64,000 bases of DNA from Allomuricauda sp. TY007 (GTDB taxonomy: Bacteria > Bacteroidota > Bacteroidia > Flavobacteriales > Flavobacteriaceae). Where the stretch lies: positions 186,001 to 250,000 of the forward strand of contig NZ_WUEG01000001.1 in assembly GCF_010468565.1 (NCBI RefSeq), read 5' to 3'. Shown here piece by piece: positions 24,748 to 36,488 of this stretch. Numbering within the stretch: position 1 is the first letter of the stretch; every line of letters starts with the position of its first letter. The position numbers and the translations under genes are program-made. The notes beneath the pieces were generated by a model. That model did not search any database. It saw only the letters and a program-made list of their open reading frames with translations, and was not told the DNA's origin.

Positions 24748-24894
24748 TACTACTTGGCCACAAGAATCAAAATCTATCGTACAAAATGGAATTAAAAAGG
24801 GGGTGCTTCTAAACACAATGTAACATTGACAGTTGTGTTTTCCCTAATTTCTATCTCATGCCTATCATAAAAATCTGATTTCCTGTCCCACCGT

Positions 24895-25845
24895 ATGACC
24901 AAGCCTATAAAAATATTGGACAATTCAAAGCACAATGCCTTTCCAAGTATAGAAATGGACAATAATGGAAGGTTGTTTATCGGTTATCAACAAGTCATTT
25001 GAGCCCTATCGCAAAAGATTGTTTGTTAATCAGTAGTGATATGGGGCGTTCATGGTCGGAAGAAATTACATTGGACAATGGTAAAGATTTTTTGGACACC
25101 AAGTTTGGAATTCGAGGAGTTAACTTATCACGTTTGAACAATAAAATTGTAGCAACCTATCATGTCAACAACGGTGATTATGGAAATATATATTATAGAA
25201 TTTCCAAAGGGAATTATAAAAATTGGTCCAAAAGAAAAAAATAGAACTTGAAAACATTTCTGTAAACAAAATAAGTTGCGAAGGTCAAATGATACAGGAA
25301 AACTCCTCTTATATATTGCCTGTTTTCTTAGGTAACGAGAATAACTTGTTAGATGTAGGTGTGGCCATTTCAAAAAACTTTCGCCATTGGAAATATTTTC
25401 CGTTCCAAACCAAAGCAGCAAAGAGGTAGAAAATGTAATTGTCAAAGCGGGCAATGATATCTTGATGTTTTATTCAGATCCATCAAAAAGTATTCTCTAT
25501 AGAACCACATCCATTGATGGTGGGCAAAATTGGTCCAAGCCAGAAGACGTAACTTTTACAGGATGGATCGTTCATAGACCGAATATTTATTATAATAAGA
25601 ATAACGAAACAATGTTGCTTGTCTACCGAGAGGGCAAGTATAACACGGGCGCAATTGCGCTGTCCAAAGACAAAGGTAATTCTTGGAAAAAATTATTTTC
25701 TATAAATGAGGACAATAGAAGAATCACCTATGCGGATTTCGTTGAACTAAATGATAATACACTAGGGTTTATTTATGCTACCGAGAATAATTTGAACGGA
25801 GACGATTCTGATCTGTTCTATACAACCATACATATTGTGCATTAA
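24895..25845 (+). pseudogene. Frameshifted sialidase-like (BNR/Asp-box) protein gene
   Basis: Four overlapping frames together give one protein of about 315 residues. Asp-boxes S-x-D-x-G-x-x-W appear three times: SSDMGRSW, SIDGGQNW and SKDKGNSW, with N-terminal HNAFPSIEMDNNGRLF and a later VHRPNIYYNKNNETMLLVYR. Each break (near 24990, 25240 and 25400) needs one added base; the last two are in runs of A and T. So it is either decayed or carries sequencing errors. Such beta-propellers cleave sialic-acid-type or other glycans. It stands on the opposite strand to the polysaccharide genes, and its 3' end overlaps the epimerase end. Confidence 0.75.
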
Positions 25846-27984: not shown

Positions 27985-29199
27985 TTATTTTACCGGTTGT
28001 TTCTGTTTAAACACATTTTCTTCAATAAACAGACAAATAAAAAGAGTAAAAAGCATTATGCCCTTTTGTCTTATCAAATAGGATTCAGTCATGAATGCAA
28101 TCATACAGATTATTACAAACAGTGCACCCTGTATATTTTTCCCTTTAATAGCTATATAAAGACTTCTTAAAAGAATCAACAATAAAATTCCTCCTCCAAA
28201 AATGCCATATTGCAAAAATGTTGTTAAGTATTGATTGTGAGAATTAAGCTTCATGTTTTTTTTATCCATGCCGCTATTTTGATATTGGTTTTTCAGATAT
28301 TCTACTTCGCCATAGGTCCCATATCCAAAAACAGGTCTTTTTTTTATGGTCTCAAAAGAATTTAACCATAAATCCTCCCTTAATGAAAGATTATGATAAT
28401 CCTCACCTATTTCACTTATTGATTCTGATGAAACGAGTCCTACTTTTTCAAGTACACCAAAGTATTTATCTTTTAAATAGGAGCTACTATTTATTAGGAA
28501 AAAAGCCAACAATATTGATAAACCAAAGAATGCAACATTCCTTAGCGTAATCAGCTTTTTTATATTTAATACTACATAAACGGCCGTTATAAGAAAAAAA
28601 GTGGCAATACCTATACGTACCCCAAAAAGAAAGATAACTGTGAAAAATAGCAAGGAAAGTATCTTTTTTAGCAGATTCCCATAATTTCCAAAGAGCAAAA
28701 ATATGTATGCTGTGTTAAGGTACAATGTATCATACGGAAAGTGGAAATGGTACATTGAGCTTTGAGCAAAATTGTAATGATGGGAATACTCATTGTGAGC
28801 CCAAAAATTATACAACAGTGTCGCTATAGATAAAATACAGAACAACGTACAAGACCAAACAAATACTTTTTGTAAAGTCTTTCTTTGTTCAACTCTTAAG
28901 GACATGACCAATACAGCCAAGGGAAATATCAACATTGGAAGCTTTCGAACAATCCTGTCCGTTGCCTCTACCGGGTTTTCAGAATAAAAAACCCCTACAA
29001 AAGACAAAATAAAATAAAAAAGGAACAAATACGAATTATGGAAGTCTGGCATAACCACCTCTTTCCATTTATATGAAATTAAAAGTGCCAAAACCAATAT
29101 TACCATGGCTATGGTAGAAAAAATCAATTCAAATGGAAGTGAAAAGACCAATAACATCAAAATAAAAAACGCATGGTCCTTGTTCAACTTTGTTAGCAT
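27985..29199 (-). CDS. O-antigen ligase/polymerase-like membrane protein (WaaL/Wzy type)
   Basis: A 404-residue polytopic protein with about eleven helices and a large periplasmic loop (residues 240-320) containing LREDLWLNSFETIKKRPVFGYG and LNSHNQYLTTFLQYGIFG. The HNQYL/G motif is typical of the Wzy_C/WaaL family. It either polymerises repeat units or ligates the chain to a lipid. As another polymerase-like gene follows upstream, ligase is the likelier role here; this is inference. Confidence 0.82.
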   Translation of the reverse strand: MLTKLNKDHAFFILMLLVFSLPFELIFSTIAMVILVLALLISYKWKEVVMPDFHNSYLFLFYFILSFVGVFYSENPVEATDRIVRKLPMLIFPLAVLVMSLRVEQRKTLQKVFVWSCTLFCILSIATLLYNFWAHNEYSHHYNFAQSSMYHFHFPYDTLYLNTAYIFLLFGNYGNLLKKILSLLFFTVIFLFGVRIGIATFFLITAVYVVLNIKKLITLRNVAFFGLSILLAFFLINSSSYLKDKYFGVLEKVGLVSSESISEIGEDYHNLSLREDLWLNSFETIKKRPVFGYGTYGEVEYLKNQYQNSGMDKKNMKLNSHNQYLTTFLQYGIFGGGILLLILLRSLYIAIKGKNIQGALFVIICMIAFMTESYLIRQKGIMLFTLFICLFIEENVFKQKQPVK

Positions 29200-29202
29200 A
29201 TT

Positions 29203-30471
29203 TTATGACAATTTACCATTTCTTTTCAGGTTAAAAGCTAAAAATGAATAGAAGCTTATAATCAGAATCAAAAGAATACCTGGAATAGCTTTATTAAAAT
29301 AACCCATTATAAATGAAATCCCCGTCCAATTGAAAAACTGGAAGGTTAAAAGTGACAATATCTGCTTGTTTTTAACCATTAATACATTTAACAACCAGGT
29401 TATTGGAGCCAAAACAGAACCAACTAATAGTGCATGAAAAACATAGGCTATTCCCAAAGGGAATATTTTAAGCAAAATTGCTGGATAAGCATTGGTAAAA
29501 CTAAATCCGTTTTGTATTGATCTTTCTATGTGGTCCAAGTCACCATACCAAAAATATCTCATAAGTACGTGCATCCCCTTGTATAGTTCTTGAAGATCCC
29601 ATGACTTTTCATGACCCCAAAAAACAAATTGTTCAACTGACCCCCAAAACAAATGTGCCTGAAGACCGAAAGCACGATAAAATATTGCTTCGATTGGTGT
29701 TTTAGCCCCAGCATTAATAAACGGATTGTGGATTGAGTATTTTACATATACAAGCCCAAAAATCAAGAAGAAAATTATGGAGAAATAAGATTTGACAAAT
29801 TTTACTACGCTGAATTTGAATACAATGTTCGAAGTCAGTACCCATGGCAAGAAAAAAGCATACAATGACCTTACAATAGGACTGAACTTTTGACCTATTA
29901 GCACCAAATAGGCAATATATATCAATAACAACATCAACCCAGACCTTTTCCTCCTTACATAAATATTGCCAAAAATAAAAGGCAAAAAGGCCGCTGTATT
30001 ACCAAAAATACTTCGCAGCACTGGAAACTTGGAGTTTGGCCAATATGTAAATCTAGTTACGGAATTATCAAACAGGGGACTGGAGCTCATTAGCAAATTC
30101 AACAACAACAAACCTAAAATTAATATGCCCAACGCAAAAATTATCAGATAACCAATATTTGCACCTTGATAGGAAATACTCGGTGCTTGAAACCTAACAT
30201 GACGATTAAGGGATTTAAAGACTCTTTCAACAGAAAATATCGAAATTAGAAAAAAAACGAGGAAACAGAGATTAGCCCATACAAAATAACTTTCCCTACC
30301 CTGTTCGCTAATATAAATGCCGGTTTCAATAAAAGTTAAGGATGCCGAAGTAATAATGCCTTGATAATAAACATAAAGGAGTAAGTAAAACAGCTTGTAA
30401 TTTTTATTTAACCTATGAATGCTAAAAAAAATTACAAAAAGAACAATTGATATATTCAAAAAAAAACTCAT
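29203..30471 (-). CDS. Wzy-like O-antigen polymerase candidate
   Basis: A 422-residue polytopic membrane protein with about ten to twelve helices and a periplasmic loop near residues 235-310. No strong family motif. Its size, hydropathy and place between the flippase/transferase genes and the WaaL-like gene fit a Wzy polymerase, a family with very low sequence conservation. Its ATG overlaps the upstream stop by 4 bases, so it is translated with the sialyltransferase-like gene. Confidence 0.65.
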   Translation of the reverse strand: MSFFLNISIVLFVIFFSIHRLNKNYKLFYLLLYVYYQGIITSASLTFIETGIYISEQGRESYFVWANLCFLVFFLISIFSVERVFKSLNRHVRFQAPSISYQGANIGYLIIFALGILILGLLLLNLLMSSSPLFDNSVTRFTYWPNSKFPVLRSIFGNTAAFLPFIFGNIYVRRKRSGLMLLLIYIAYLVLIGQKFSPIVRSLYAFFLPWVLTSNIVFKFSVVKFVKSYFSIIFFLIFGLVYVKYSIHNPFINAGAKTPIEAIFYRAFGLQAHLFWGSVEQFVFWGHEKSWDLQELYKGMHVLMRYFWYGDLDHIERSIQNGFSFTNAYPAILLKIFPLGIAYVFHALLVGSVLAPITWLLNVLMVKNKQILSLLTFQFFNWTGISFIMGYFNKAIPGILLILIISFYSFLAFNLKRNGKLS

Positions 30472-31496
30472 TCAAGAATTTTTATGCCAACATGTTCAAA
30501 CAGCTTGAGCACCTTTTTATCTACTTGGCCAAAAGGCATCGAATAAACCAAGACATTCTGTTCCTTATCCAGACCCATTTGAATATTGACCAATGCCGTT
30601 GAAAAAAACGAAAAAATTTTGCAAGCCCTTATTTCATCAACAATATCCTCAACTGGCGATTTATCTTGAATCAATTCAACTCGATTTCCAAAATTTTCCT
30701 TAAGCAAACCAAAGGCAACGTGGTAATTTCCATTTCTATGTGGTTTGTAATAAATGGTATTTTCAGTTGAAGTCAATTTTTGAATTTGTTGAATCATAGA
30801 GGAAACCAAATTTCTATATTCTGCATGGCCTAAAACATTTTCGAGTACATCTTGTCCAATGAACAGCACTTTAGTTTTGTCCGCAACATATTTTATTTCA
30901 TTGTAGCCCAATGGAATTGCCTTTTCAGGATATAAAGCAAATTCTGGAAACTTTACATATTGATCTGGAACTTCAGGTAGGTCAATGCCTGAAAGTTGTC
31001 CATTTAAAATGTTATAAGGCATTCCAAAAAAATAAGCAACCCATTTTTTTAATTGGAACGTCCTTCTTCTTTCTCTTGTTATCCTATAGTCATAATAATT
31101 TAAAATACCATCTTCGACTAGAGTACGTTTGATTAGGGTTTTCTTCCTAAATCTAAAGAAAAGGTAGTTGTTTAAAACATCTTCCAAGTTACAATAATAA
31201 AGTTCCCACTGCGAATTGGGCACCCTTCTTTTTAGGGTGTCCAAAGTACTCCGATAAGATTTGATTTTTAAAACCTGAAACTTTACATTTTTAATTATTC
31301 CCCTATTGGATGGGTTTCTCATTGGCATGGGGTCCCCTGCGACTACAATACTCCAAAACTTTTCATCAAATGGATAGTGGCCAGCATTAACTAGGATTTT
31401 TATGCCTGATAGGCCTTTTGCCGCAATAATTTGCTCGAAATTTTTATTGTGCGATGGTGCTATTGACACAAACACATGTTGTTCAGTATTGCTCAT
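30468..31496 (-). CDS. Putative glycosyltransferase with bacterial sialyltransferase-like motifs
   Basis: A 342-residue soluble protein with three features in the order seen in GT52/polysialyltransferase-type enzymes: an acidic EDG (residues 128-130), a KPH (251-253, followed by Arg where HP is usual) and a Ser/Thr pair in SFFSTAL (296-302). In those families EDG and HP help bind the CMP-sugar and catalyse transfer. It stands with NeuB-like and CMP-nonulosonate synthetase genes, which would make its donor. Family membership is tentative; overall similarity is too low for me to be sure. Confidence 0.6.
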   Translation of the reverse strand: MSNTEQHVFVSIAPSHNKNFEQIIAAKGLSGIKILVNAGHYPFDEKFWSIVVAGDPMPMRNPSNRGIIKNVKFQVLKIKSYRSTLDTLKRRVPNSQWELYYCNLEDVLNNYLFFRFRKKTLIKRTLVEDGILNYYDYRITRERRRTFQLKKWVAYFFGMPYNILNGQLSGIDLPEVPDQYVKFPEFALYPEKAIPLGYNEIKYVADKTKVLFIGQDVLENVLGHAEYRNLVSSMIQQIQKLTSTENTIYYKPHRNGNYHVAFGLLKENFGNRVELIQDKSPVEDIVDEIRACKIFSFFSTALVNIQMGLDKEQNVLVYSMPFGQVDKKVLKLFEHVGIKILE

Positions 31497-32742
31497 TGTT
31501 CAAAACGGATTTACCCGGCCCAAAAATAAAATCTATCCTAAAAACTTTTATGCATAATGTATACATAATAGCAAACTCAAAAAAATAAGATATGCAAGTA
31601 GTCCATGCGGCAATTTTATACCCATATTCGGGTATAAGAATAAAGTTTAATATTAAGTTAAGGAAAAAAGCAACCAAGGCCGGTAATATTTGAATCTTAG
31701 TCCTTTTAAAATAGAATGGTACATTAATCAATACTGTGTACAAAAAATAGAAAAACATTCCCAATAAAAGAACCGGTATTATACCAAGAACTTCAAGATA
31801 ACCTGAATTGGATAGCATAAGGACAATCTCCTTTTTAAAAATCAAGACTCCCAAACCAACTATTAACACAAGAAATAAATAATACAGAAATTTTTTTCTT
31901 ATCTGATGGATTCTGTTTTCATTTAGTGCGTCTAACACAAACTTTTGCCACCATTTGTTCGTAGCCATGAAAAAGGCCATGAAAATCATTGCCACCGTGT
32001 AGGCAACGGTATAGTTGGCAACATCTTCCTCTGTCCCATAATAATTTACAATAAATCTATCAGCTGCATTTAATCCTATTGCCGATAAAACACCTAGTAT
32101 CAGCGGCATGCTGAAAGTTAATGAAGATCGGATGCTTTCAACAAAAGATTGCCATTCTATTTTGGTGCTCCTACGCCACAACAACCATAAAAGCGGAAAA
32201 CAGCATAGCGATAAAACAATCATATATACCCATGGGTAAACATGAACGTTTGCTAGATAATAAATAAATATTGCAGCAGTCACCAAATAGGAAAGGCCCG
32301 TTCTAATAAAATATAATATATTATACTTTAAAGCATCGCCTTTTATTTGATAGTAGGACAAAACCATCTCAATAAGAACAAATAAATAGGCTGAAACCAA
32401 TACATAAATATCAAATTTTTGATCAATTAAATAAATGTCCCACCAAGAAAGAATTTGTTTAATCGATAATAACAGTATAAATGTTAGGCTGGAGACTATA
32501 TATACATTCCTCAATAGGTCTATGACATTGATTTCCTTTTCTAAATATGCCCTTTTGACATAGCTTCTTTGGGCAAGGTCGATGAATATAGAGGACAAAG
32601 GCACTGCTACCCAAAAAAGCGAAAGTTTGCCAAAATCAACTTTATCAAGATTGTTGGTAAAAACATGGAAGACGAGAAAGACCGACCCTTTAGAAAATCC
32701 TTCACCCAGCAGATAATAAATTTTTTGCAGCCGATCTTTCAA
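31483..32742 (-). CDS. wzx: Wzx-type oligosaccharide flippase
   Basis: A 419-residue membrane protein with about twelve helices and the RfbX/MOP pattern: GEGFSKGSVFLVFHVF at the N-terminus and LILNFILIPEYGYKIAAWTT in the C-half. It would flip lipid-linked repeat units across the inner membrane. The start is a TTG at 32742; it overlaps the next gene by 14 bases. Only one flippase is seen in the locus. Confidence 0.88.
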   Translation of the reverse strand: MKDRLQKIYYLLGEGFSKGSVFLVFHVFTNNLDKVDFGKLSLFWVAVPLSSIFIDLAQRSYVKRAYLEKEINVIDLLRNVYIVSSLTFILLLSIKQILSWWDIYLIDQKFDIYVLVSAYLFVLIEMVLSYYQIKGDALKYNILYFIRTGLSYLVTAAIFIYYLANVHVYPWVYMIVLSLCCFPLLWLLWRRSTKIEWQSFVESIRSSLTFSMPLILGVLSAIGLNAADRFIVNYYGTEEDVANYTVAYTVAMIFMAFFMATNKWWQKFVLDALNENRIHQIRKKFLYYLFLVLIVGLGVLIFKKEIVLMLSNSGYLEVLGIIPVLLLGMFFYFLYTVLINVPFYFKRTKIQILPALVAFFLNLILNFILIPEYGYKIAAWTTCISYFFEFAIMYTLCIKVFRIDFIFGPGKSVLNNEQY

Positions 32743-32753
32743 TAGACAATTTT

Positions 32754-33791
32754 TTAGTATTTCTCATTTAAATTCATTAAGAACTCCTTCATTACTTCAA
32801 ATTTTTGTTCAAACACATTCTTGGCCTTAAAAAAATCCGTAAAATCACCAGACTTATATTTTTGAATGGCATTTTTGGTCTTTTTGAACAAATCTTTGTC
32901 ATGAATGTTCAGGATCGGCATTTTTAAGGTTTTCATCATCCCCATACCTCGCCCGTCTTCATTAATCAAAATAGATGGCACTCTTCTGCTCAAGAAATAC
33001 AAGTGCGCATGAACCCTGTAACCAATATGAAAATCCATCTGTTCATAAAATTTCATTCTGCCCAGATCATAAGCTATATCCTTGATTTTAATTCTTGGTA
33101 CTATGAGTTTTGAGCCAACACACATAAGTATATAGCCAATACTGGTAACCAGTTTAGTATGTTTATCAGGTAATATTCCCCTGTGAAAACTCAAAATGAA
33201 AGTTCCATTTGGAAATTCTTGTTTCATTAATCTGACCAATTTAATGGTTTGCCAAAATAATCTTGGCGCTGCCGGGGTAGTTATAACGATATTCTTAAAT
33301 TCTTTGGGTTCAAATGTTTTTTCAATATGATTCAAATCATACCATACGGGACACCCTGTCATTTTAACATTTTGACACCCATTGTTTTGCAAAATCCCGT
33401 AAGTTATTTCATCTCTACAACTTGAAAAGTCGATTGCCTCGTGAACATTTTTCAGAAATTCGGCCGATTCTTTATTGAAACAGAAGTTTTCGGGCTCACC
33501 AATTGGAAACCCACTCCAACCAAGCCCAAAGGGGACTATAGGTACTTCTATCGCTTTCAAGTCGTCTACCAAGGGGTAAACACCTTTATAAATATTCGAT
33601 GCATATGCGGGGCCCCCACATAGTACTACGAATCTCGAATTATTGATTGTTTCCAAGTTCGGTGTTAGGTCCTTGGTTCTATCTAAAATTACAACATCTT
33701 TGTCCACGAATTCTTCAAAGAGTTTTTTGGCCCTATCGGTGATTAAAAAATCTCCAATGTTTTTGATTTGCCCAGAAAGCAGAACTATCAT
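32754..33791 (-). CDS. Polysaccharide pyruvyl transferase family protein
   Basis: A 345-residue protein of the CsaB/WcaK fold: N-terminal GQIKNIGDFLITDRAKKLF, CGGPAYAS near residue 60, SCRDEITYGILQNNG near 125, and the C-terminal HIGYRVHAHLYFLSRRVPSILI, where the His-Arg-His segment binds phosphoenolpyruvate. It adds a pyruvyl ketal to a sugar of the glycan. It lies between NeuB and Wzx in a tight run of co-directed genes. Confidence 0.88.
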   Translation of the reverse strand: MIVLLSGQIKNIGDFLITDRAKKLFEEFVDKDVVILDRTKDLTPNLETINNSRFVVLCGGPAYASNIYKGVYPLVDDLKAIEVPIVPFGLGWSGFPIGEPENFCFNKESAEFLKNVHEAIDFSSCRDEITYGILQNNGCQNVKMTGCPVWYDLNHIEKTFEPKEFKNIVITTPAAPRLFWQTIKLVRLMKQEFPNGTFILSFHRGILPDKHTKLVTSIGYILMCVGSKLIVPRIKIKDIAYDLGRMKFYEQMDFHIGYRVHAHLYFLSRRVPSILINEDGRGMGMMKTLKMPILNIHDKDLFKKTKNAIQKYKSGDFTDFFKAKNVFEQKFEVMKEFLMNLNEKY

Positions 33792-33802: not shown

Positions 33803-34867
33803 TTAATTAAACATTTTCCATTCCAGAATAGTATCTTCTGCAATAGTTTGTGTTGCAATTTTTCCAATTAGTTGGTTGATGTCCTTTGGAGAAATACCTA
33901 CCGCTGGTCTTTTCCAAGTTAAGTGTTCTTTGGAAATAACCTCACCCTCTACAATCTCTTTTGATGAAACCAAGCTACGCCTGGCATTATTTCTTGAGAT
34001 AGCTTCGGTTTCCAAGGGAGCTTTAATTTGAGAACCTAGGAGTTCGTATACTTTTACCATCTTGTCAACAAACAATTTTAAATCTTCCTTGTCCATGGCA
34101 TGGTAATGATCATTGCCAGGAAGTGTCTTATCGTGTGTAAAATGCTTTTCCAATACTACGGCCCCTAACAAATTGGCCACCTTAAGTGTTTCCATTTCGT
34201 AAGGCAAGGTATGGTCTGAATACCCTGGAACCGTATCAGGAAATTTCTCCTTCAAATCTTTGATCATGCCCAAGTTTGCATTCTCATCGAGGGTTGGGTA
34301 GTTTAGAATACAATGCATTAAACACACCTTGTTGCCAAATTTGGCTATAGTTTCCAAAGCTTGTTGTATTTCCCATATATAGGATGCCCCGGTGGACAAA
34401 ATAATAGGCTTGCCGAAAGAACACATATACTCAATGAATGGCAAGTTTGTAATGTCCGAAGAGGATATTTTAAAAACATCCATTAAATCGTTTAAATAAG
34501 TGGCGGATTCCATATCGAAAGGTGTGGACATGAATTCGATATCTATCTCGTCACAGTATTCTTTCAGTTTTTCATATTCCGACTTCCAAAATTTATCATA
34601 TTTCTTAAACAGTTCAAATTGACTTTTGGTAGATTCCTTGGTTGTATCCCAATATGAAGGGCTGTTTTTAGATGCAATAGTTTCTGCTTTATAGGTCTGA
34701 AACTTTATAGCATGCGCACCACCCTCCTTTGCCTCATTTATCAATCTTTTGGCTAGTTCCATAGAGCCTTCATGATTTACACCTGCCTCAGCTATAATGT
34801 ATGGGCTATAAAGGCTTGGAGAATTCAAATATTCATTTAAGAAATTTACAATTTTCATTTTACTCAT
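33803..34867 (-). CDS. Nonulosonic acid synthase (NeuB/LegI/PseI family)
   Basis: A 354-residue enzyme with an N-terminal TIM barrel (EAGVNHEGSMELAKRLI, AIKFQTYKAE, PGYSDHTLP, EKHFTHDKTLPGNDH) and a C-terminal SAF/antifreeze-like domain (about residues 295-354). It condenses phosphoenolpyruvate with a six-carbon sugar (ManNAc or a 2,4-diacetamido sugar) to give a nine-carbon sialic-acid-like sugar. Its ATG overlaps the upstream fused gene by 8 bases. Which product it makes cannot be fixed by eye. Confidence 0.93.
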   Translation of the reverse strand: MSKMKIVNFLNEYLNSPSLYSPYIIAEAGVNHEGSMELAKRLINEAKEGGAHAIKFQTYKAETIASKNSPSYWDTTKESTKSQFELFKKYDKFWKSEYEKLKEYCDEIDIEFMSTPFDMESATYLNDLMDVFKISSSDITNLPFIEYMCSFGKPIILSTGASYIWEIQQALETIAKFGNKVCLMHCILNYPTLDENANLGMIKDLKEKFPDTVPGYSDHTLPYEMETLKVANLLGAVVLEKHFTHDKTLPGNDHYHAMDKEDLKLFVDKMVKVYELLGSQIKAPLETEAISRNNARRSLVSSKEIVEGEVISKEHLTWKRPAVGISPKDINQLIGKIATQTIAEDTILEWKMFN

Positions 34868-36488
34868 CTATTACTTTGTTGATCAATTTCAATACTCTTT
34901 TCTTCCCGTTCTTCAGTTCATGGGAAATCATTCGGTCGTGCATCAATATTCTAGTCTCGTAATTAAGAACGCTTTTGTAGGCATTTAAAATCTCTCGGTC
35001 CTCAACATTCACACCAAGGCCTAAATTATAAAATCCGTTTTTTTCAGATGCAAAGAAATGCGTTGTCTCTCTCTTATTCTGACATAGGACAATAGCTGGG
35101 ATTCCAAGCGAGGCAACCTCAAACGTGGTTCTTCCAGCGGAGGTAAAAACCATGTCTGCTTTTGACATTTCGTCAGAAATGCTCTTTACATCTTGTTTAA
35201 CTATAATTTGTGGGTGCCGTGCTTTGATTTCTTCAACATGATTATATCCTAGTCCAGCAACTACTGTAATTTTGGCATTGCCGATTATAGGCAACAACAA
35301 ACCGAGAATGCGTTCCGTAAAGTTGTTTGGATCAACGCCCCCAAATGCCAAAAGAATGTTGTTTACCTCTTTCCTTATTTTAATGTTAGGGGTAAAAATA
35401 AATTCATCTCTCAGAATAAAATACTTTGCCCCAAAGTAATGGTCTTTTACCAGCTTCCCTTCAGGATACATAGCATTTATCACCAAATCTGCCCTATCCG
35501 CACCACCTCCAACATCTTCAAAGTTTATAACCTTATAACCAGCATCCTTCATTTGTTGAATCTCTTCAGCTTCGGTGTCGAGCCTATCATTTACAACAAT
35601 GTCTGGTTCATGGTCTGCTAAAGCTGATATTAGGTTTCCTTCTTCAATTAAATCAACGGAATAGTTGGTCTCCTTTATTTTTTTATAAGCCAACTTGCTG
35701 CCTCGATCAACAAAAAAACCAATATTGTGGTTTAATATCTCATTTGCAATGCTCAACGTATTGTAAACATGTCCCATTCCAATAGTGCTGTTGCCTGCTA
35801 CAATAAACAAAATATTTTTCCTCCTAAGATAATATTCACACAAGTTCCAGTCTTCAAAATCATCAATGTCAATTGCCTCCTTTTTGGAAAGCGGAAAAAT
35901 ACCGATGCTTTTTCCAAATCTAGATGTTTCTGTTACAAAATTGGATTTTGTAATCACGAATCCTCCTGTTTCTTTATATATTTCCGGAAGTTCTTGTCTA
36001 TTAACCCTTTTTTTATAATTAGGAGAAAAACTACCATTGGATTTTATCCAGGTTAGGTGACTGTCCCACTTACCGGAAATTATAGTATCAATTTTTTTTG
36101 ATATAAGTTCCTCAATCCCATTCTCAATAGATTTCGTAGTTAGCAATGGTGAGGTAGGTTGAAGAGTAATGACCAAGTCATAGTCTATTCCTTCCAGTTG
36201 CTTTATTTTAGTATACGCCTCGAATATAACAGGATCCAATGTAGTGCTGTCATCTGCATTTGACTTTGACCTTTTGATTATAGATGCGCCAAATTTTTTT
36301 GCAAGCATCAAAATCTCATCATCTTCACTGGAAACGTAACATGATAAATTATTACACTTTATACTAAGGCCATTCTTTATTGCGTAATAAATCAACGGTT
36401 TACCATTTAAAGGTCTCAAATTCTTTCTGGGAATTCCTTTTGAACCTCCTCTTGCGGGTATAACTACTAATATATTTTTGTCAATCAA
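34860..36488 (-). CDS. Fused CMP-nonulosonate synthetase and PseG-like hydrolase
   Basis: A 542-residue two-domain protein. Residues 1-225 are a NeuA/PseF/LegF cytidylyltransferase (VIPARGGSKGIPRKN near residue 8; LQPTSPLL near 112; IDIDDFEDW near 210), which activates the sugar with CTP. Residues 228-542 are PseG-like: GMGHVYNTLSIANEI keeps the catalytic His of PseG, followed by LLAFGGVDPNNFTERIL and GRTTFEVASLGIPAIVL. PseG removes UDP from a 2,4-diacetamido-trideoxy-hexose before the synthase step. The start is a TTG at 36488. It precedes NeuB with an 8-base overlap. Confidence 0.9.
   Translation of the reverse strand: MIDKNILVVIPARGGSKGIPRKNLRPLNGKPLIYYAIKNGLSIKCNNLSCYVSSEDDEILMLAKKFGASIIKRSKSNADDSTTLDPVIFEAYTKIKQLEGIDYDLVITLQPTSPLLTTKSIENGIEELISKKIDTIISGKWDSHLTWIKSNGSFSPNYKKRVNRQELPEIYKETGGFVITKSNFVTETSRFGKSIGIFPLSKKEAIDIDDFEDWNLCEYYLRRKNILFIVAGNSTIGMGHVYNTLSIANEILNHNIGFFVDRGSKLAYKKIKETNYSVDLIEEGNLISALADHEPDIVVNDRLDTEAEEIQQMKDAGYKVINFEDVGGGADRADLVINAMYPEGKLVKDHYFGAKYFILRDEFIFTPNIKIRKEVNNILLAFGGVDPNNFTERILGLLLPIIGNAKITVVAGLGYNHVEEIKARHPQIIVKQDVKSISDEMSKADMVFTSAGRTTFEVASLGIPAIVLCQNKRETTHFFASEKNGFYNLGLGVNVEDREILNAYKSVLNYETRILMHDRMISHELKNGKKRVLKLINKVIDE

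Follow-up and report, generated by a model that had tools for sequence, protein, structure and literature searches.

The question raised by this locus is whether a 342-aa protein encoded next to nonulosonate genes attaches the nonulosonate to a surface polysaccharide's repeat unit, and whether it belongs to a new sialyltransferase-like family, as an initial annotation had proposed. The window is the whole stretch of 64,000 nucleotides of Allomuricauda sp. TY007 that was analysed; coordinates without a locus name refer to it. The protein very probably moves a CMP-nonulosonate sugar onto a surface polysaccharide, the details being less sure. Its sequence places it, at some distance, in the Pfam family to which the GT38 enzymes belong. 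The proposed role and the GT-B sialyltransferase fold held up; the claim of a new family did not. The family assignment itself is ordinary. The sequence variant is genuine, and the donor cassettes are distributed in an unusual way.

The transferase gene and its cluster

The transferase gene is carried by the minus strand (left unstated in the initial annotation), the plus strand of 30468-31496 having stops throughout. It overlaps wzx (31483-32742) by 14 bases, which makes precise the overlap already described, and the downstream DUF6418 gene (29203-30471) by 4 bases. The genes upstream form one run in the order Wzx, pyruvyltransferase family protein, NeuB, fusion protein, then Rml genes (named by sequence appearance only); NeuB (33803-34867) and the cytidylyltransferase/PseG fusion (34860-36488) are thus in the transferase's own minus-strand run, as had been claimed. 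The cluster also holds a GT4 and an initiating sugar transferase. Features of the window are as follows.

27985..29199, minus strand: membrane protein of the Wzy_C family, either a polymerase or a ligase (PF04932, 1.6e-19)
29203..30471, minus strand: DUF6418 membrane protein, candidate repeat-unit polymerase (PF19982; a crude hydropathy count gives about 8 membrane segments)
30468..31496, minus strand: predicted nonulosonate transferase, 342 aa (PF07388 match, GT38-like GT-B fold)
30591..30611, minus strand: SFFSTAL, residues 296-302; S299 and T300 predicted to contact the CMP phosphate
30648..30650, minus strand: E283, predicted ribose contact; invariant, spacing to S299 as in MhPST (see below)
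30735..30746, minus strand: KPHR, residues 251-254; HR in place of HP; H253 predicted to contact the phosphate/leaving group; aligns with KPHP of NeuS
31107..31115, minus strand: EDG, residues 128-130, unchanged across the 21 aligned sequences; predicted catalytic base D129
31483..32742, minus strand: Wzx-type flippase (Polysacc_synt and MatE matches)
32754..33791, minus strand: polysaccharide pyruvyl transferase family protein (PF04230, 3.8e-21)
33803..34867, minus strand: NeuB-family nonulosonate synthase (PF03102, 4.5e-75; TIGR03569, 334 bits, below the cut-off of 400)
34860..36488, minus strand: fusion of a CMP-nonulosonate cytidylyltransferase with a PseG-like hydrolase domain (PF02348; the halves match PseF and PseG, each below cut-off)

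A BNR/Asp-box sialidase-like gene (PF13088) is found at 24871-25845 on the plus strand. It is broken across several frames, the open part being the last 152 aa. Relatives that are less broken or intact occur at two loci carrying related transferases, L020 (15817-16767) and L074 (7724-8785); the L074 copy adjoins the transferase.

Family, fold and predicted mechanism

The translated sequence contains EDG (128-130), KPH (251-253) and SFFSTAL (296-302) in the order and with the residue numbers first reported, and R254 directly follows KPH, HP being replaced by HR. Such short motifs alone could be produced by chance. The whole protein, however, matches PF07388 (A-2_8-polyST) with E 2.1e-14 and 54.2 bits (cut-off 23.3), the alignment covering profile positions 64-303 of 316. 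The same model scores the yardstick, E. coli K1 NeuS, at 152.4 bits, and NeuS itself has sequence matches to the structures of the M. haemolytica polysialyltransferase; identity between the window protein and NeuS is about 15%. With this above-cut-off score, a new family is not supported. The right rank for the HR transferases is that of a subfamily or variant: HR is real and marks one clade inside the PF07388 family. Just 9 of the 21 sequences of the transferase set have a PF07388 match of their own at E 0.1. The GT52 model (PF07922) is not matched by the window protein in the Pfam search and is weakly matched by 2 of the 21 sequences (best 3.9e-5). The GT38 link comes from the Pfam match and the fold comparison, since a PDB sequence search with the protein and its profile as queries found no relative. 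Searches of NCBIfam and PHROGs gave no family for the window protein, and a literature search at title and abstract level found no paper on the HR clade.

The AlphaFold2 model of the transferase, built with 21 sequences, has a pLDDT of 91 and a pTM of 0.88. In Foldseek the top match is 5wcn (GT38; E 7.7e-11), followed by the GT52 enzyme 2yk6. VIA-align also places 5wcn at the top (Z 18.7, rmsd 6.5 over 302 residues) with 5wc6 at Z 18.6; GT80 sialyltransferases come next (Z 13.5-15.7), then UDP-sugar epimerases and glycosyltransferases (at most 13.4). The high rmsd to 5wcn may reflect two domains closed differently. The fold is therefore of the GT-B sialyltransferase type, with GT38 then GT80 as the best matches and GT52 second in Foldseek. 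A fold other than GT-B, or membership of TagF or the pyruvyltransferases, had been named beforehand as refuting the proposal; the fold is GT-B, and neither membership was found.

The M. haemolytica polysialyltransferase (MhPST) uses E153 as base and binds the phosphate through H291 and S339/T340 and the ribose through E323 (PMC5517516). The corresponding residues of the window protein are D129 (E153), H253 (H291), E283 (E323) and S299/T300 (S339/T340). The E283-S299 spacing (16) equals that of E323-S339, and EDG aligns with EEG of NeuS. All 21 sequences (window included) share E128, D129, G130, K251, H253, R254, G256, E283, F297 and S299; residue 300 is S or T throughout the relatives' alignment. 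By analogy, the window protein would be an inverting, metal-independent GT-B glycosyltransferase using a CMP-activated nonulosonate: D129 of EDG would be the catalytic base and H253 would stabilise CMP as it leaves; the ribose would be bound by E283 and the phosphate by S299/T300. At the usual proline position the protein has R254.

The HP motif of bacterial GT-B sialyltransferases is absent: His is retained and Pro is replaced by Arg in 21/21 full-length clade sequences. The outgroup L073 carries HP. Most relatives were retrieved by a peptide scan with VEDG[TI]LNY and [NKE][TK][IV]YYKPH; the R is not part of either peptide. In the N. meningitidis polysialyltransferase, acidic or glycine mutants of the first motif are inactive, and mutants of the His or Pro of HP keep less than 10% activity in vitro (PMC2169525); P279A is the NmB-polyST mutant with in vitro activity below 10% (PMC2169525), and this loss means that R254 at the proline's place calls for a structural explanation. 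An HA variant of HP has a single report, in H. ducreyi (PMC2169525).

Relatives and donor cassettes

The relatives comprise 22 loci found in named genomes by peptide scan and three more found by whole-genome searches. Nearly all of the 22 scanned loci are from Flavobacteriaceae or from MAGs labelled Flavobacteriales/Bacteroidia. A transferase match is found in 12 of the 397 genomes of the family sample (one weak) and, in a phylum-wide sample of 395 genomes, in the window's genome only. One MAG copy of the transferase gene (L020) has one in-frame stop after 265 codons (10796), beyond which similarity continues in frame.

The direct upstream neighbour of the transferase in the relatives' loci is a Wzx-like gene. 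DUF6418 is directly downstream in all 23 HR-clade loci with sequence there (window included); next to the transferases of the outgroup, L073 and L074, it was not found. DUF6418, a fixed companion of the HR-clade transferases, is a candidate family of polymerases. A nonulosonate synthase is encoded upstream, mostly at 3 kb or less, in 23 of 24 informative loci (L031 and L040, near-identical pieces of one MAG, counted once; L037 left out, its upstream sequence being too short). Together with the fold, this position just downstream of a synthase supports the nonulosonate-adding role put forward initially. L038 has no nonulosonate gene within the upstream 10 kb; its MAG has a PseB over cut-off on a different contig.

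Three types of donor cassette are found. Kdn type (11 loci): the synthase adjoins a KdsC-like phosphatase. That of L033 scores 263 bits (cut-off 180) with the KDN-9-phosphate phosphatase model and has 3e81 as best PDB match; L033 alone was profile-scanned, the other ten being assigned by 61-71% identity. Pseudaminate type (9 loci): the synthase is of PseI type, over the PseI cut-off in all four loci scanned; the remaining ones were assigned by identity. Third type (window, L020 and the Hyunsoonleella ulvae locus L021): a NeuB at 75% identity and the cytidylyltransferase/PseG fusion are common to the three loci and accompanied by the pyruvyltransferase family protein (L020 and L021 copies at 70-72% identity).

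Eight genomes were compared for pathway enzymes (L020, L021, L022, L024, L033, L036, L038 and window). PseB is over cut-off in those of L022, L024, L036 and L038 and absent at that threshold from those of L020, L021, L033 and the window; KDN phosphatase is over cut-off in that of L033 only. The window genome (99.96% complete) has no PseB, PseC, LegB, NeuC or KDN-9-phosphatase over cut-off. The window's pathway is hence one without any known first enzyme of the Pse, Leg, Neu5Ac or Kdn routes over cut-off. A PseC-like aminotransferase at G000:C24 was rejected, from its sequence start and neighbourhood only: it lies beside galE-like and Kdo-transferase-like genes, with no nonulosonate set. The Rml genes, considered as the source of the third-type donor, are uninformative, being also present in Kdn loci. 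At L075 (7811-9990), galE-like and DegT-type aminotransferase genes adjoin a probable Kdo transferase gene; a possible role of this pair is in making a lipopolysaccharide-core amino-sugar.

On the transferase tree, the third type forms one clade (100/98), and Kdn and pseudaminate loci interleave; a single Kdn clade is rejected (AU p 6e-7). L035 (pseudaminate) and L039 (Kdn) are sister transferases with 63% identity, and L036/L041 (pseudaminate) group with L028 (Kdn), L036 and L028 being 53% identical. Cassette labels were given before tree building; these two exchanges were singled out afterwards. In the mixed-type pairs, Wzx is 62-68% and DUF6418 69-81% identical, and the synthases, of different types, only 35%. 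The same-type pair L028/L033 has Wzx at 60% and DUF6418 at 68%. Since Wzx and DUF6418 are as alike as in the same-type pair and the synthases are not, the exchanges lie upstream of Wzx. Parallel residue changes between the two separate pseudaminate lineages within the Kdn group number 3-5, against 0-10 in Kdn pairs; as they are no commoner than among Kdn pairs, no donor-determining residue is claimed.

From their position, each cassette would supply the adjoining transferase. The transferase then either tolerates several nonulosonates or adapts through changes too scattered to be visible in this set. A joint reading can be offered tentatively: the HR clade would tolerate, or easily re-adapt to, chemically different nonulosonates; at least two Kdn/Pse cassette exchanges would have occurred in marine flavobacteria with Wzx, transferase and DUF6418 kept; and the window's own clade would use a pathway without a known first enzyme. 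To our knowledge, pseudaminate and Kdn transferases are hardly known compared with Neu5Ac ones. The pairs L035/L039 and L036/L028 are natural pairs of close enzymes beside different sugar pathways, which makes the donor-specificity determinants of bacterial sialyltransferases directly testable. Two further leads from the clade are DUF6418, a candidate polymerase, and the nonulosonate pathway that has no known first enzyme over cut-off.

Alternative activities and comparison with known systems

A processive enzyme building a nonulosonate homopolymer in the manner of NeuS would account for the Pfam family common to NeuS and the window protein and for GT38 being the closest fold. Two residues strictly conserved in polysialyltransferases and placed in donor/acceptor binding, R259 and K293 (MhPST numbering), are nevertheless D216 and N255 here (alignment through NeuS and MhPST); NeuS itself has K at the R259 position, K293 being the clearer difference. 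No membrane segment was found in the transferase by hydropathy count, which, with the missing R259/K293, fits single transfer. The Wzx flippase, the two polytopic Wzy-like membrane proteins and the initiating sugar transferase of the cluster point to one nonulosonate per repeat unit, and the Rml genes, the GT4 and the initiating transferase imply a hetero-oligosaccharide unit. A homopolymer is accordingly very improbable; we infer that the likely product carries one nonulosonate per repeat unit. In this single-transfer scheme, one residue would be added in the cytoplasm to a lipid-linked oligosaccharide, the presumed acceptor; Wzx would flip the finished unit, and its polymerisation would fall to a Wzy-type protein, more likely DUF6418 than the Wzy_C protein.

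Transfer of another CMP-ulosonate such as Kdo, or of a different charged sugar, would make the nonulosonate neighbours a matter of cluster architecture only. The HP motif does occur in beta-Kdo transferases (PMC5517516) and many enzymes have GT-B folds, but one transferase type adjoins synthases that belong to two or three unrelated nonulosonate pathways, and structure comparison puts sialyltransferases above the remaining GT-B enzymes; such a transfer is very improbable, by a hair less so than the homopolymer. The alternatives raised initially, a pyruvyltransferase or a polyol-phosphate transferase of TagF/TagB type, have negligible probability; the Pfam result and the structure ranking already make them very unlikely. 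TagB-domain proteins have been proposed as Pse/Leg transferase candidates in Tannerella (as cited in PMC7439481); the window protein has no such Pfam match, and the pyruvyltransferase family protein of the cluster is a separate gene (32754-33791). Transfer of a nonulosonate is thus preferred.

Known systems compare with the window protein as follows. GT38 (E. coli K1 NeuS, N. meningitidis SiaD, M. haemolytica PST 5wcn/5wc6): PF07388, the GT-B fold, D/E-D/E-G, KPH, the S-S/T pair and a ribose-binding Glu with equal spacing are common; the window protein differs by HR for HP, by the lack of a detected membrane segment, by an identity of only about 15% to NeuS and by a Wzx/Wzy cluster in place of the KpsMT-type ABC export cluster of GT38 systems. 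GT52 lipooligosaccharide sialyltransferases (Lst, NST 2yk6): GT-B fold and motif order are common, whereas PF07922 is unmatched by the window protein. GT80 (PmST1, Photobacterium enzymes): the GT-B fold and the roles of the Asp in DDG and the His in HP are common; identity to the window protein is 10-13%, and the inter-motif stretch of GT80 is about 50 residues longer (PMC2169525).
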